NCBI GenBank assembly: GCA_022508605.1
Contig: JAFLUX010000003.1
Span: 1-64,000, forward strand
Direction: 5' to 3'
Length of the DNA: 64,000 bases
Source: Bacteroidales bacterium
Lineage (GTDB): Bacteria; Bacteroidota; Bacteroidia; Bacteroidales; UBA932
A model generated the notes under the pieces. The model did no database searches, had not been told where the DNA came from, and worked only from the letters and a program-made list of their open reading frames with translations. How positions within the stretch are numbered: the stretch's first letter is position 1; every line of letters begins with the position of its first letter. The translations under genes were made by a program, and so were the position numbers. Positions 51,765-62,400 of this stretch are shown here, piece by piece.

Positions 51765-54491
51765 TTAAAAATTGATTAGTTCTCCGTTTACGGTGAAGTT
51801 GCTGAATACGGCGGTGGACTGTTTTGAATTATCACCGCTGTTTGCCGCCACGCCCAGCTTGATGGTGTCGGAGAGGGTCGTGAATTCTTTTGAAGACACG
51901 CTTCCGAAGTTCTCGCCGCCGTCGAGCGAATAACTCAACTTCACTTTGTTGCCTTCACGCACCATCTTCAATACAGTGGTGCCGTTTCCGGACGGTGCTC
52001 CCAAGGTGAACCCGGACTTCGCCTTGCCGGCTTCGAGACGGGCGTTGCCGTATTTGTTGCCGACTATTGCAAAAGGCAGGTCGTTGGCACTCGCGGAGGC
52101 GCTGCCGTCGATTATAATGATGCCGGCCACTGCCTGATTGCTGTCTTTTGTGGGGTCGTATGAGACGAGTTGCACGGTGGCCGTGAAGTCGCCGGTAAAT
52201 TCGCGGTACACGGCTCCGAAGGCCTGCGCCCCGCTTTCCCACTTGCCGGAAGAGGCTATGGTGAGCCTTTCTCCGCTGACGGCATACAATGCCGATGCCG
52301 CTCCGTTATTTACCCAGTACCAGCCTTCTGAGAGACCTGCGGCAGGTTGGTCGGGGGTATCGGGATCGTCCGTTTCGCCTGTCCCGGGGTTGTCGTTATC
52401 GTCGCCGTCGCTTCCGTTGAAGTCCGTGATGCCTCCGTTGTTCACTGCCACGGGAGCCGAAGTCCATCCCAATTTGCCGTATCCGGCATTGGCGCTGACA
52501 AGTTCGGGAACTTTCTCCGCGGGCGTCGCCACATAGTTGTAGCCCGGCTGGAAATCCGTATAGGTGAGAGGCGTGGCAAGGGTCGCACCGCCGTATGACG
52601 TGTATTTCACGTTTGTCAGAGGATATGGATCACGGGCCTTCGCCGGGCGGTTGTAGTAGACATTCTCCGTTGCATAGAGATAGCCGGCCACGCTGCCCTG
52701 CAGGTTGGACACGTCGCCCTCCTTTGCCGGATAAGTGCAGATGTCGGTAGGCAGCTGCACTCCGTCGAAACAGTTGTATTCCACCAGTACCTTCGCTCCG
52801 TAGGCGGAACCTGCCCCATAGGTGGTGCAGCCGTCATAGAAGTTGTTGTAGACATGTGCCCAGCCGTAGCGCACGCGCGGGTGGCGGGAACTGGAGTTGT
52901 CGAACCAGTTGTGGTGGAATGTCACGGTGATTTGCGTGTCGGAGGTCTGGCTGTTGGAATGGCCCACAAGGCAGCTCTTCTGCGTCTTGATGAACCTGTT
53001 CCAGCTGACCGTCACGTTCTTCGAGCCGTGCGTGATGTCGCAGGAGCCGTCTTCGTAGTCCTTGGTCTGGTTGAGGGACGTGAAAGTGCAGTGGTCCACC
53101 CACACGCCGTCGCATTCCTGCATCGACACCGCATCGGCGCCGTTGTTGGCCTTGGGCTGCTGGAAATTGATGTTCCGTATTATGATGTTGGAAGACCTCA
53201 CGCAGAAGATTCCTATGCGGTCCATGACGAAGTCGTCGGTGCCGTAGAAGCTGAGGTTGGACACATCCTTTACGTCGAACCATGGATGGGCATCGCTGAA
53301 ATCGCGGCCGTCTTCAGGACCGAAAGTGCCGCTGAGCCAGATAATCACAGGGCTGTGATCGCCTTTCCTTTCTGTCTTGGTGCGCTCCAGCAGCCAGGTC
53401 TGGAGGGCCTTGCCGTTGTTGAAATGCAGCACATTGACTGCGGATGCTCCCTCGCCTCCCGTCACTCCGGCGGCCTCGGCGAATCCGTACAGCTTGTCCG
53501 TTTCCACTTCGCCCTCTGCCGGAGGGTTGGTGCATTCGAGCTCGGCAGCTCCGCCGGGATTGACCTCGCTGCCGTCCTCGCTGATGTTCTCATCAGTTAT
53601 GGTGAATGTCAACGTGTTGATTTTCCCGGGGACGAAAGCGATGCTCTGCTTCAGTCCGACCGAACGGAAGATGCTCAGATCTTCATCGTCAGTGATTACG
53701 GAAGCGCTGAGCGAGGAGCCGGCATCGAGCGTCGTGGGATTCAGGACTATGTAGGCTCCCTTGCCCGCATCGAAGGTCCAGTCGTCCCCGGCGTAGCTCA
53801 CGCCGACTTCGTAAAAGCTGTTCTTGCTCTCCCAGCCGACGATGGACGCATTGGTGATGTCCACCTGCACACGGCCGCTGAGAAGTCCCGATGAGGATTT
53901 CAGGGTAAAGCCCTTGATGGCCTTGCCTGACAGCTTGCCTCCCGTGGTGGCGTCTTCAAAGACCACTTTTGCAACGGCCATGAGGCGGTTGAAGTGCAGG
54001 GTTCCGGTCTCCGTGATTACACCGCCCGCGATGGTGATGTCGGCGGGGTCGGAGACGAGCAGGTCTGCGGCCGGGTCGAACGAATCGAGGTTCGGAATGT
54101 TCTGCACGGAGGGCAGCATGAATTTGAAAGTCGATCCGCTGCGTCCGTCCCTCATGTCCTTGGGGTAGTAGGCATGGATGACGTGATTGCCGTCTTCAAG
54201 CTCGGCCTTGCCGGTAAAAATGCCGGTGGTGCCGTCCTGGGCCGTGTTGGTCAGGGACTTGTTGGCGGAATAGTCGCCGTCCTTGAGATAGGTGAATCCG
54301 CAGATATCGCCCGCGTGCCACTTCGGAATCCACCCTCCGGCGGTTTCCTCTATGAAAGTGCGTGTCTGGGGCTGTTCAGCGGAGAAAGTGAGTAAGACTT
54401 CGCCCTCGCGGAGCCTTTCCGCAGACTCCTTGGGCTGGCAGGCTGCTACCACGGCAGCGGCGCACAAAACTGATAAAACTGTTTTTTTCAT
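51765..54491 (-). CDS. Pectate lyase (PL1) lipoprotein with N-terminal fimbrillin-like and C-terminal beta-sandwich-like domains
   Basis: Lipobox VVAAC; fimbrillin-like N-terminus (TRTFIEETAGGWIPKWHAGDICGF..); VWVDHCTF, WFDNSSSRHPRVRYGWAHVYNNFYDG of PL1; C-terminal LamG/DUF1349-like region. Confidence 0.88.
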   Translation of the reverse strand: MKKTVLSVLCAAAVVAACQPKESAERLREGEVLLTFSAEQPQTRTFIEETAGGWIPKWHAGDICGFTYLKDGDYSANKSLTNTAQDGTTGIFTGKAELEDGNHVIHAYYPKDMRDGRSGSTFKFMLPSVQNIPNLDSFDPAADLLVSDPADITIAGGVITETGTLHFNRLMAVAKVVFEDATTGGKLSGKAIKGFTLKSSSGLLSGRVQVDITNASIVGWESKNSFYEVGVSYAGDDWTFDAGKGAYIVLNPTTLDAGSSLSASVITDDEDLSIFRSVGLKQSIAFVPGKINTLTFTITDENISEDGSEVNPGGAAELECTNPPAEGEVETDKLYGFAEAAGVTGGEGASAVNVLHFNNGKALQTWLLERTKTERKGDHSPVIIWLSGTFGPEDGRDFSDAHPWFDVKDVSNLSFYGTDDFVMDRIGIFCVRSSNIIIRNINFQQPKANNGADAVSMQECDGVWVDHCTFTSLNQTKDYEDGSCDITHGSKNVTVSWNRFIKTQKSCLVGHSNSQTSDTQITVTFHHNWFDNSSSRHPRVRYGWAHVYNNFYDGCTTYGAGSAYGAKVLVEYNCFDGVQLPTDICTYPAKEGDVSNLQGSVAGYLYATENVYYNRPAKARDPYPLTNVKYTSYGGATLATPLTYTDFQPGYNYVATPAEKVPELVSANAGYGKLGWTSAPVAVNNGGITDFNGSDGDDNDNPGTGETDDPDTPDQPAAGLSEGWYWVNNGAASALYAVSGERLTIASSGKWESGAQAFGAVYREFTGDFTATVQLVSYDPTKDSNQAVAGIIIIDGSASASANDLPFAIVGNKYGNARLEAGKAKSGFTLGAPSGNGTTVLKMVREGNKVKLSYSLDGGENFGSVSSKEFTTLSDTIKLGVAANSGDNSKQSTAVFSNFTVNGELINF

Positions 54492-54503: not shown

Positions 54504-54641
54504 TTACAAAATAAAATCGTCTCCGGGCAGGAGCATGTCTCCCGCTCCGTCATCCGTAAAAGCGCTTCCTGCAAGTATCACGCTCTCGCTGAGATAATCG
54601 CCGGTTTCGCACTTCGGAGAAACATATTTTACAGTGTTCAT
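54504..54641 (-). CDS. Unannotated 45-aa small ORF, Y-x2-P-x13-LAGS type
   Basis: MNTVKYVSPKCETGDYLSESVILAGSAFTDDGAGDMLLPGDDFIL*; ends 12 nt before the fimbrillin-PL1 gene; shares motif and spacing with 56276..56416. Confidence 0.65.
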   Translation of the reverse strand: MNTVKYVSPKCETGDYLSESVILAGSAFTDDGAGDMLLPGDDFIL

Positions 54642-54665
54642 GGGACTTGGATATTAAAATTTGGA

Positions 54666-54692
54666 GGTAGCCGGGCGGTCAGGCCCGACTAC
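54666..54692 (-). terminator. Terminator-like hairpin between the fimbrillin/BACON gene and the small ORF
   Basis: GGTAGTCGGGC-CTGACC-GCCCGGCTACC (one mismatch) on the minus strand; weak T-run (TCCAAATTTT). Confidence 0.5.
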
Positions 54693-54701
54693 CCTGAAAA
54701 A

Positions 54702-56258
54702 TTAGTTGGAGTGATACTCTATCTTGTAGAAGCGTAGTGCGTTTCCGGTGGAGTAGATAAGCACTTCACCGGCCTCCACATTGAAGCTGACTACGGACGG
54801 TTCGGCAGCAGATGCTGTGCCTCCGGGCAGGGATGTCTCTGTGTTGTTCTGATTAACCGTAACCATGCGGGTGAGGTCTTCGCTGTCTCCGGTATTGGAA
54901 GCGGTGACGGTGAGCGTACCTGCGGCAGGTGCTTCGAACTTTGCATAACGCTCTTTCGTGCTGCCTTTCCCTCCCCATTGGATGTAGTATGTGCTTCCTG
55001 AGACGTTGTATTTGAGAGTGTTGTTTCCAACGATATAAAGTCCGTTATGGTCGAAACTGACATTCTCATTGGTATTGATTTTTTCGAACGTCTCTTCAAA
55101 TACTGCAACCCATTCAGGATCGCTGAAATCCCATACCCAGTCTATGCTGGCTCCCGGTGCGCGCTGGCTTACAGTAATGGTGGAGGCTTCAGCTCCGGAA
55201 AGCCCGAGCTTAATCCATCCTTCGCGGCTCGCTTCGGTAGTGTTCTCGGAGATGCTGTACGTGACGGTGCCGTCCGCTACGGATGCTTCCGTGACCACCG
55301 TGCCGTCGAACGATACCTGAATATCGCCGTCGGTGCAGTTCTTCGTGGTATAGGCATTCTCAATCGTGAGGCCGGATGCGGCTTCGGGAGCGATGGCATT
55401 CACCGTGGTCGTGGTCACATTGAGGACCGGGTTCGGGTCGTATGTGATGTTCGGGGTTCCGAGGTTGTAGACAGTTCCGATGGAGAGTTTCGCTTTTTTC
55501 TCCGTCGAAAGGGACTCTTTTATCGTTCCCTCCTCATCGAATGTGTATTCGAGGGTAAGGGTGTTCACATTGCTGTCTTTCACCGGCACGGGAATGTAAT
55601 ATGTCGCACCGTTCTCGAAAGTGCCGGAAGAGGGTTTCAGTGTAATGTCGGGCTGGGCGCTTTCTATGGCTGAGAAACTGCCGTCGAGGTTGAATACGGG
55701 GCGGCCCTGGAAGCGAGTGTTGCTGCTCGACAGCTTTATGGAATACACCCCGTCTGTTCCGACGGTGAGCTTGAAATAAGCCATTCCGTGGCGGAATGTT
55801 ATCTGACTGTCGGAAACGACCCCGGTAAGAACGGCAAAGTTCGGATCGTAACTGTCTTTGACTGCTGTCTGGACAGCTCCGAGGTTTTTGTCAATCTCTA
55901 TCTTGCCGCTGGCAAGCGATGCCGGGCGCACTCCGACTGCGGGATAGACGGCATAGAAAGTGTCAGATGCGTCGAGCGGATCTATTTCTCCCTCGAACAC
56001 GGCCGTAGATTCTCCGGCTCCTGATGTGAGTGTGAATGTGTAGGGGGCGGATGTCTGTTCGCCGAACACGGCGATTGCGTCTCCGCTCTGCCATACGATG
56101 CTGACTCCGTCTCCGCCGAGTTCCGTCCTGGTGTCCGCAGGGGCCGATACGTTCAGGGTCATCTTAATACTGCTGTCGGTCTTAGGTGCCGACTCCTTGT
56201 TGCATGCAGTTGCGAACAGTGCGCAGACTGCGAGTGAAATTGTAAAAATCCTTTTCAT
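54702..56258 (-). CDS. Fimbrillin-like/BACON lipoprotein with C-terminal WDFS..ALRFYKIEY module
   Basis: Lipobox ALFATAC; TRTELGGDGVSIVWQSGDAIAVFG; BACON-like CTDGDIQVSFDGT...REGWIKLGLSGAEASTITVSQRAPG; C-terminal module shared with 59414..62743. Confidence 0.8.
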   Translation of the reverse strand: MKRIFTISLAVCALFATACNKESAPKTDSSIKMTLNVSAPADTRTELGGDGVSIVWQSGDAIAVFGEQTSAPYTFTLTSGAGESTAVFEGEIDPLDASDTFYAVYPAVGVRPASLASGKIEIDKNLGAVQTAVKDSYDPNFAVLTGVVSDSQITFRHGMAYFKLTVGTDGVYSIKLSSSNTRFQGRPVFNLDGSFSAIESAQPDITLKPSSGTFENGATYYIPVPVKDSNVNTLTLEYTFDEEGTIKESLSTEKKAKLSIGTVYNLGTPNITYDPNPVLNVTTTTVNAIAPEAASGLTIENAYTTKNCTDGDIQVSFDGTVVTEASVADGTVTYSISENTTEASREGWIKLGLSGAEASTITVSQRAPGASIDWVWDFSDPEWVAVFEETFEKINTNENVSFDHNGLYIVGNNTLKYNVSGSTYYIQWGGKGSTKERYAKFEAPAAGTLTVTASNTGDSEDLTRMVTVNQNNTETSLPGGTASAAEPSVVSFNVEAGEVLIYSTGNALRFYKIEYHSN

Positions 56259-56275
56259 TTTCTGCCCTCCTTAGA

Positions 56276-56416
56276 TTACCAGATGTCAGCCCAATCCTCT
56301 TCTTCGAGCTGGGGAATGCCATTGCCTTCTAAACTTCCGGCAAGGAAACAATCGGAATTAAGCACCTCGAACACTTTTGTGTCGGGTGCAGTGTAGTGTA
56401 GTGTAATGTAATGCAT
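56276..56416 (-). CDS. Unannotated 46-aa small ORF, Y-x2-P-x13-LAGS type
   Basis: MHYITLHYTAPDTKVFEVLNSDCFLAGSLEGNGIPQLEEEDWADIW*; ends 17 nt before the fimbrillin/BACON gene. Confidence 0.65.
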   Translation of the reverse strand: MHYITLHYTAPDTKVFEVLNSDCFLAGSLEGNGIPQLEEEDWADIW

Positions 56417-59413: not shown

Positions 59414-62400
59414 TTAGTTGGATTGGTACTTCACGCTGTAGAAACGGAGTGCATTGCCTGTGCTGTAGATGAGCACTTCACCGGCCTCCACATCGAAGCT
59501 GACTACGGACGCACTGGCATTGGATGCCGTGCCTCCGGGCAGGGAAGTCTCTACGCCGCCCTGGTTCACAGTGACCATGCGGGTGAGGTCTTCGCTGCTG
59601 CCTGTGTTGGAAGCGGTGACTGTGACCGTGCCTGCGTAAGGAGCCTCGAACTTGAGATAGCGGTCGTCGGCACTGCCCTTGCCTCCCCACTGGAAGAAGG
59701 TAGTGTTGTACTTGCTCTTCTGAGTTGATACGAGGGTCAGTCCGTCATAAGTGAGGTTCCAGTTCTCAATGTCGGTATTGACGGCGCCGAATTTGGCGAA
59801 TTCCGCCTGCCAGTCCGCTGTGGAGAAATCCCAGCCGTATTCCACGGCAGCGTGAGCGCCTCCGGTCATGTAGGTGAACTCAACCTTGTAGAAGCGGAGT
59901 GCGTTGCCTGTGCAGTATATGAGCACTTCACCGGCTTGCACGTCGAAGCTGACTACGGAAGCATCGGCATTGGATGCCGTGCCTCCGGGCAGGGAAGTCT
60001 CTACGCCGCCCTGGTTTACAGTGACCATGCGGGTGAGGTCTTCGCTGCTGCCTGTGTTGGAAGCGGTGACGGTGAGCGTACCTGCGGCAGGTGCTTCGAA
60101 CTTGAGATAGCGGTCTGAGGTGCTGCCCTTGCCTCCCCACTGGAAGAAGGTAGTGTTGTACTTGCTCTTTGCAGTGGAAACGAGGGTCAGTCCGTCATAA
60201 GTGAGGTTCCAGTTCTCAGTGTCGGTATTGACGGCGCCGAACTTGGCGAATTCCGCCTGCCAGTCCGCTGTGGAGAAATCCCAGCTCAGAGTGACCTCCA
60301 CCTGCTCCTCGGCGTTTCCGAGAGGTTGAACCGCGATGGATGCGCTGCCCTGCTCGGATGCCACATAGTATATGTCATTCTCGGCGGGGAATGCCTGCAC
60401 GCTGAAGGTGTACAGACCGGCCTTGAGAGCCGCGACATCTTCTGCGGCCACGGTGAATTCCGTCTCCGTCTGGGCTTCATTCGCCCTCTTGTTGAAAATG
60501 ACTATGTATGAAGCCGCATTGTCGATTGCATCCCAGTGGAGCTTTACTTCGACTGCATCGCCTTCGGATATCGTGACCGGTTCGACACTGAGCTTGGGAG
60601 TTGCAAGCACCCTGTTGCCGCCAAGTACATCCTTGCTCCATGCAAGTTTGTTTATGCTGACGGCCCCGGTGGAGTAAAGATACACCGTCGCTTCTCCGCT
60701 GACGTTCGGCACGACTATTTTCTGCACTTCAGGATTGGCGGAAGATGCCACCGCTCCTCCCTGGATGCTCAGTCCGTTGTCGTCGTAAAGGGCGACCACG
60801 ACGCTGGCGCCGGTCTTGCCGGGGTCGGACAGAAGGATGTCTACTGAACCGGGAGCATCGACCTTGAAGGAGATGTAGGCTTCCTCAGGCACGCCCTTGC
60901 GGGAGAGTACGGAAGCGCCGGGGAAATTGATGCCGCCGTCTGCGTTGAGCGGATTGGCCTCCGTGCCCACGAGCATGAGCTCATCGCGCACGCGGGAGTT
61001 CTTCACGTCGCCTGCGAAGAGGCTGGCGTCCTGAAGATTCCATGTGTGTGCGGAAGTTATCACATTCTGGGTGAGGTCTTCGGTCTTCTCCACATAGGAA
61101 ATCCACCATTTGGATGCTCCGACCTTGCCTTCGATAAGATCCTGGGCCGCAAGCTGGAAGAAATTGCCCTTGGAATTGTAGCAAGGATCCACATTCATGG
61201 TCTTGAATCCGGCTGCGGCAGCGCTGATGCGGTTGAAGAAACTCTTGCCGTGAGCATAGCTGTAGTTGCCGGATGCGTTGCGGAACGTGGGATCAATGGA
61301 GTTGGCATTGTCCTGGAAAAGCTGCGCCCTGTCGGCATCGCTCGTATCATCGCCCTTGCCGCCGTCCTCAAACAGGAACAGGTTGTCCTTGAGCGTCATT
61401 TCGGTGGCCACGCGGATGGCGAAAATGCCTCGGTTGTTGCCGTCGTCCATCGTGGCGATGTTCTTGACGGTGTTGTTCTCGAAGTCGATGTAGCCGATCT
61501 TGATGGCATCGGATGCATCGATGCGGAACAGCGTGCGGATGCCGTCGTACATGGTGTTGTTCACGAAAACGATCTGGTCGATTTCAGTCGTCTTGCGAAT
61601 GTCCACTGCGTCTCCGCCGCTGCCGGGTATGCCGTACATGTCGCAGGAGTCGAATTTGAACGTTCCGATTTTGACTACGGGATCGCTGTTGCCGTAGAAG
61701 AATCCTGCGGCGTAATTGGTGATCTCGCAATTGACGAACTCTATCTTGTCGACGACCGGGGAACCGCTGGTGTGTTCAACGATTCGGGAACCGCCTACAC
61801 CGTCGAACTTGATGCTCTCGAAATAGATGCTTGCACCCTGTTCAACGAGAGCGTCGGTAAGCTCCACCTTGCCCTGAATCACCGGTTTAGCACCATCGGG
61901 TCCCAGCTCTCCGACTATGCGCAGGCTCTTTGCGGGCTTGGCGCTGCTCATCGAGTAGGGAGTGTCGCTGTAAAGCAGATAGTACTCTCCGCCGTCATTT
62001 ACGGCAGTTTTGAGCTCCGCTTCGGAGGAAAGGGTGACGGCGTTGCCTTTCTCGGCCATCGTGAAAGTGTCTACGCTGCCTCGTGAGGCGCTCATGTAGA
62101 AAAGCGTAATCTGATACTCGGTGGACGGGGCGAGACCCGATACGGTCGCGGCCGCCGCAGATTTTTCGCTCTCGGTGATAGTATAGGAGACACTTTTTCC
62201 TCCCTTCACGGGAACGGCCTCCAGTTCGGTGACTTCAAGGTAATCCGCCACGTCCTTGCTCCAGGACAGGGTCACGGATTCGGTTCCGCGCCCCGTGATT
62301 TCGAGGAACAGGTTGTCCTTGACCGCATAAGTCCTCACATTGCCGTCATAGGCTGCGATTACCGATTCGCTGCCAGGGACTTTCACACCTTCTCCGTTGA

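Follow-up and report, generated by a model that had tools for sequence, protein, structure and literature searches.

Two short open reading frames (ORFs), each lying directly ahead of a lipoprotein gene, raise the question of what such small peptides are made for in a pectin-utilisation region of a Bacteroidales genome. The window analysed here is the whole 64,000-nt stretch of DNA that carries them. Judged from their sequences and by analogy with a characterised system, both are probably precursors of a RiPP system of the linear polyphosphorylated peptide (LPP) type that is matured in trans, with a KxYxxP...[IL][LC] leader and a variable acidic core.

Two short ORFs and their lipoprotein neighbours

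ORF A (54504..54641, minus strand) encodes 45 aa and ORF B (56276..56416, minus strand) 46 aa. A preliminary description of this DNA had placed two peptides of about 45 aa here, with a YxxP motif, 13 residues, LAGS and an acidic tail, ending 12 nt (ORF A) and 17 nt (ORF B) before the ATG of a lipoprotein gene, and each of these features was confirmed in both ORFs. Their assignment as LPP-like precursor peptides is based on sequence, on matches to a family HMM (E = 1e-12 for ORF A and 5e-12 for ORF B) and on 11 and 10 syntenic orthologues, respectively. The leader of ORF A, whose border was placed by analogy with LPPs, the consensus of 105 peptides and published leader rules (PMC13381572), would comprise residues 1-23 (MNTVKYVSPKCETGDYLSESVIL; 54573..54641, minus strand) with a YxxP motif of the RRE-binding type, leaving residues 24-45 as the predicted core (AGSAFTDDGAGDMLLPGDDFIL; 54507..54572, minus strand). 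For ORF B, the putative leader spans residues 1-25 (MHYITLHYTAPDTKVFEVLNSDCFL; 56342..56416, minus strand) and the putative core residues 26-46 (AGSLEGNGIPQLEEEDWADIW; 56279..56341, minus strand). Ser26 of ORF A, a predicted kinase target, and Ser28 of ORF B would each be Ser3 of the core.

The window contains the strict motif YxxP-x13-LAGS twice, compared with 0.0 occurrences per simulated window (40 Markov-1 simulations), and the next-best ORF in the window after these two scores E = 4.2 with the family HMM. A search of the same genome with a degenerate DNA pattern gave a single further match, which was spurious. Neither the two ORFs nor the whole peptide family has a significant match in Pfam or NCBIfam, and none was found in the PDB; the precursor assignment, if true, accounts for small ORFs that fall below the 60-aa ORF track and match no such family model. 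The start of ORF B (56385-56416) consists of an imperfect pentanucleotide repeat, ATTACATTACACTACACTACACTGC, which is a possible slippage site.

The gene order across the pectin-utilisation region is SusD-like, UxaC, UxaA, ORF B, its lipoprotein, ORF A, a fimbrillin-like pectate lyase, UxaB, a transporter and a pectinesterase, where gene names without Pfam support are readings of the translations. The 908-aa lipoprotein after ORF A (51765..54491, minus strand) joins a fimbrillin-like N-terminus (PF13149, E = 1.5e-7; 32.1 bits, passing the cut-off of 27) to a PL1 pectate lyase domain (PF00544, E = 9e-35). The 518-aa lipoprotein after ORF B (54702..56258, minus strand) has a fimbrillin-like fold, a BACON-like middle region (E = 0.0026) and a C-terminal repeat domain; its AlphaFold model has a pLDDT mostly above 85 over residues 51-370, and the best PDB match of this model is 3ufi, a putative cell-adhesion protein from B. 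ovatus (E = 5e-7). The fimbrillin-like N-terminus first ascribed to both neighbours is thus seen in Pfam for the partner of ORF A, but only at the fold level for that of ORF B, which has no PF13149 match. About 140 aa at the C-terminus of the latter protein (54702-55140) form a domain (YIQWGGKGS...LTVTASNTG) that recurs in a 1117-aa lipoprotein (59414-60400), where it is present in two copies, with 93 of 143 residues identical.

A selected peptide family paired with multidomain lipoproteins

When 60 relatives were searched by tblastn, two other species proved to carry both ORF A and ORF B in unchanged order, and orthologues at the same positions were found in named uncultured Bacteroidales MAGs, many of them from the rumen. 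Among these orthologues, the core of ORF A keeps the pattern xDLTDxGxGxFLxxGxEFxF and that of ORF B IPxLxEEDWSDIW. Several tblastn matches at E 0.2-1 were spurious, for example within large ORFs. The family HMM, which started from 15 unique peptides and grew to 87 by iteration, matched 58 of 80 genomes searched and 112 sites in the genome stretches examined, these surveys combining searches with stretches of genome. In the genome of origin it detects nine peptides at E ≤ 0.003, rising to 12 at E ≤ 0.01, and the family numbers about 12 members there and more than 100 in the genus. Tandem precursors ahead of a single lipoprotein gene were seen at two loci (L135, G072:C130; L155, G032:C2).

The family consensus consists of KxYxxP, Glu at P+3, alternating hydrophobic residues, Glu, [IL][LC]xxS and an acidic Gly/Asp tail. 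The identical 13-residue spacing to LAGS, noted at the outset, holds for ORFs A and B but is no rule of the family: across 105 unique peptides the conserved element is L-x-x-S rather than a literal LAGS, and the spacing is P-x16-S in 60 and P-x15-S in 41. The Ser is kept in 105 of 111 unique peptides, while the residue before it is variable. Asp and Glu together make up 26% of the tail, Gly 14%, and Lys and Arg together 2%; the last five positions include an aromatic residue in 97 of 108 peptides, and the tail mostly terminates in Trp or Phe.

The ratio pN/pS was 0.52 for ORF A (11 orthologues) and 0.55 for ORF B (10), compared with 1.03-1.23 in shifted frames, and a pooled value of 0.31 over 16 close pairs again indicated codon-level purifying selection. 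The conserved Ser is encoded by both of its codon families (63 AGY and 42 TCN in 105 peptides). On this evidence ORFs A and B are real and under purifying selection, in the peptide frame only, which bears out the initial view that they are selected peptides rather than chance ORFs.

The preliminary description also considered translational coupling, in which the ORFs would be regulatory leader peptides (uORFs) that set the expression of the lipoprotein and whose product is dispensable. Their tight position fits this idea, as the gap to the lipoprotein has a mode of 12-13 nt and includes one stop/start overlap, and leader genes that raise downstream translation are documented (PMC4833913). However, Tyr, Pro and Ser are constant across more than 100 peptides despite free codon choice, selection acts throughout the reading frame, and the family co-occurs with the RRE/protease/kinase/exporter operon described below. 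In addition, some peptides in one genome (G054) have no downstream lipoprotein, and one of these precedes the kinase operon. Translational coupling is therefore an incomplete account, and we consider it unlikely.

An ORF lies just downstream in 82 of 87 peptides; about 75 of these 82 ORFs start with a lipobox and 73 have a TKT-type fimbrillin-like signature. For 499 random ORFs of comparable length, the number followed by a lipoprotein start is about 9. The anticipated enrichment upstream of fimbrillin-like lipoproteins is thus real when viewed from the peptides, but it does not hold in reverse, since a peptide of this kind precedes only 7 of 74 Mfa_like_1 genes. The trait therefore belongs to a multidomain, divergent subfamily rather than to fimbrillins at large, and a generic fimbrillin leader was rejected, with 67 of the 74 Mfa_like_1 genes having no peptide. 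The partners share an N-terminal fold or sequence signature with Mfa_like_1 fimbrillins (PF13149; FimA/Mfa1 type V pili), although only 8 of 74 match PF13149 itself. Unlike the classical fimbrillins of about 300 aa, which mostly lack the peptide, they are larger and multidomain, with domains as varied as pectate lyase, BACON, LRR, DUF4874 and peptidase M64. At one locus (L053, G026:C40) an intact peptide precedes a lipoprotein gene whose signal-peptide region is interrupted by a stop codon; a peptide can therefore outlast its partner. No earlier description of this peptide-lipoprotein pairing was found in the literature searched.

One-to-one pairing could also mean that the peptides act unmodified on the fimbrillin-like lipoprotein, either as assembly partners, a role suggested at first for ORFs A and B, or as donor-strand-like subunits. 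Cores are kept together with their partners across species, and core similarity correlates weakly with partner similarity (Mantel r = 0.08, p = 0.01); no co-variation with partner similarity was seen for the leader (r = -0.06). Yet the precursors carry no secretion signal or signal peptide, classical fimbrillins lack the peptide, and both the shared leader and the operon would be left unaccounted for. We consider unmodified subunits improbable, more so than translational coupling, whereas a mature core acting as an assembly partner would be compatible with the LPP-type precursor assignment.

Leader and core also behave as separable modules. In several paralogous peptides, DNA similarity begins near the start codon and is lost after LxxS, and the partners differ. 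The clearest pair (G000:C29:16607, plus strand, and G000:C31:2515, minus strand; L166/L173) is 99.5% identical over 183 bp comprising the 5' region and the leader half, with identity ending exactly at the leader/core border ahead of unrelated lipoproteins, a pattern that suggests module exchange. The reverse, with tail and lipoprotein start alike and leader not, was seen in C42/C57 and C2/C58. A DNA-level shufflon or assembly-break hotspot was considered and rejected, as contig ends were not clearly enriched (12 within 2 kb downstream compared with 8.6 expected), and the C29/C31 exchange therefore remains a single observation.

A candidate maturation and export operon

Most relatives have an operon encoding an HprK-like kinase, an S24/S26 protease, an RRE and an ABC exporter, which in the genome of origin lies on contig C2 in the order kinase-S26-PqqD-ABC (L233:6269-9508). 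A PqqD-like RRE is encoded in 14 of 15 genomes examined, usually within this operon, and matches Pfam PqqD (PF05402, E = 4e-15). The modelled RRE from the genome of origin matches the fold of the lasso RRE-leader complexes TbiB1/TfuB1 (TM about 0.72). In the LPP protein LppB, the leader Tyr and Pro are held by D70, N33 and Y60 (PMC13381572); the counterparts D73, N35 and Y63, mapped by spacing rather than structure, are invariant in 11 of 11 RREs aligned. From the model and these residues, we infer that the operon encodes a discrete PqqD-like RRE able to hold a YxxP leader.

The S26 protease has its catalytic Ser in GxSM, His in HR and Asp in GDG, all invariant in 11 sequences; its PDB relatives are Sec11/SPase, and its match to TIGR02228 is weak. 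The Walker A motif GTGKSTHS is present in nearly all kinase sequences, which match ScmC/HprK-rel-A models weakly, and the exporter matches an MsbA model (E = 4e-72). The operons of G013, G021, G054 and G113 also encode NTP_transf_5 (PF14907), while no NTP transferase adjoins the operon in the genome of origin.

Peptides and operon co-occur. Within the genus, peptides were found in 47 of 50 genomes with the kinase and in 7 of 12 without it (p = 0.005). The corresponding figures in other families were 4 of 5 (5 of 5 at a looser cut-off) and 0 of 13 (p = 0.0016), these genomes having been chosen partly for the presence of peptides and not of the kinase; across the phylum, the kinase was detected in just 4 of 148 genomes searched. 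In G054 (L200) the operon begins with a precursor gene, the order in G030 (L248) is PqqD-kinase-precursor-lipoproteins, and precursors adjoin the operon in G033 (L240), G021 (L285) and G073 (L289), with further cases elsewhere; some adjacency loci were fetched for a nearby match, and the unselected cases are G033, G030, G074 and G077. No precursor adjoins the operon in the genome of origin. In G032 (91% complete), no kinase was found alongside its 22 peptides and operon-type RRE (L246), and G001, G020 and G065 have the kinase with no peptides detected.

The operon content bears on two further precursor classes. Phosphorylated lasso peptides combine a YxxP leader, an RRE, an HprK-like kinase and an NTP transferase (PMC13381572), and the paeninodin-like members, with a YxxP/WxxP leader and a PqqD-type RRE, resemble the present system in all these respects. 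One relative (L234, G013:C1:480000-497000) has a separate lasso-type cluster encoding two Asn-synthetase-like proteins, PqqD and a sulfotransferase-like protein. However, neither an Asn-synthetase-like macrolactam cyclase nor a B2 cysteine protease was found in the operon neighbourhoods examined, where an S26 protease stands in place of the latter, the leader lacks Thr at -2, and just 1 of 81 family members has a match to NCBIfam lasso models (E = 0.18). A paeninodin-like product is accordingly very improbable.

We judge it just as improbable that these are double-glycine-type peptides, cut and exported by a C39-peptidase (PCAT) transporter. LAGS and LLSGS look like a double-glycine site, in many peptides accompanied by Glu at -8 and Leu at -4, and bacteroidetocins and other double-glycine peptides are likewise made from small Bacteroidales precursors with leader and core. 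Their leader differs, however, Gly is just the commonest of many residues before the Ser, and Peptidase_C39 is present in only 3 of 15 genus genomes, with none in the genome of origin (7% of which is missing).

Proposed pathway and relation to linear polyphosphorylated peptides

LPPs are encoded by lppA-K-B-S-D-N (Nat Commun 2026, PMC13381572). Their YxxP leader is bound by an RRE and removed by a SpI-like protease with a Ser-His-Asp triad, and the kinase polyphosphorylates Ser3 of the core, where Thr or Tyr is not accepted (PMC13381572). We propose that each precursor is made together with the downstream lipoprotein, presumably by co-translation; the tight spacing itself is observed. The PqqD-type RRE, acting in trans from contig C2, would then bind the YxxP leader, as its fold, conserved pocket residues and the motif suggest. 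The HprK-like kinase would phosphorylate the conserved Ser at core position 3, as LppK does, and the S26 protease, like LppS, would cut after the hydrophobic pair so that xxS forms the core N-terminus. The MsbA-like exporter would move the acidic core out of the cytoplasm. Outside, we speculate, the core may meet its co-encoded lipoprotein, with its fimbrillin-like domain and often an additional enzyme or binding domain, and act on or with it. A single operon would thereby serve about a dozen precursors scattered over the genome, every one of them paired with a lipoprotein of its own. The initial suggestion of processed signal peptides is supported in the broad sense of leader-bearing precursors. 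The fullest version of this scheme is a peptide-adhesin pairing system in which one LPP-type operon, acting in trans, matures and exports about a dozen phosphorylated peptides. Each peptide would be made for, and act on, the lipoprotein encoded beside it, and recombination at the leader/core border would reshuffle the two modules. This version is one that we offer tentatively and would sooner doubt than adopt.

If these are the Bacteroidales counterparts of LPPs, a rumen-type gut lineage spends about a dozen genes per genome on them. LPPs were stated to be restricted to Bacillota, with their role unknown (PMC13381572), and their link to named surface lipoproteins, in this case within a pectin-utilisation locus, would then offer a concrete handle on what the peptides might do. 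A literature search, which missed most subscription papers, found no earlier reports of such peptides in Bacteroidales.

Both systems share a SpI/S26 Ser-His-Asp protease, a discrete PqqD-type RRE, an HprK-like kinase and an MsbA-like exporter with no cyclase, and in some of the present loci also an NTP_transf_5-type transferase. Their precursors have in common a YxxP leader, a variable C-terminus and a conserved Ser that follows the first two residues of the presumed core. In contrast to the LPP leader consensus YxxPxVLxHQxIxFETxxS (PMC13381572), the leaders described here lack HQ and FET and place the Ser at P+16/17 rather than P+15. As the consensus differs beyond YxxP and the Ser, the peptides are called LPP-like and not LPPs. 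They also differ in their acidic, mostly Trp/Phe-terminated cores. Relative to the Bacillota systems, three features are new: the occurrence in Bacteroidales, the large number of dispersed precursors for each operon (about 12 per genome, mostly far from it) and the one-to-one pairing of each with a fimbrillin-like surface lipoprotein.
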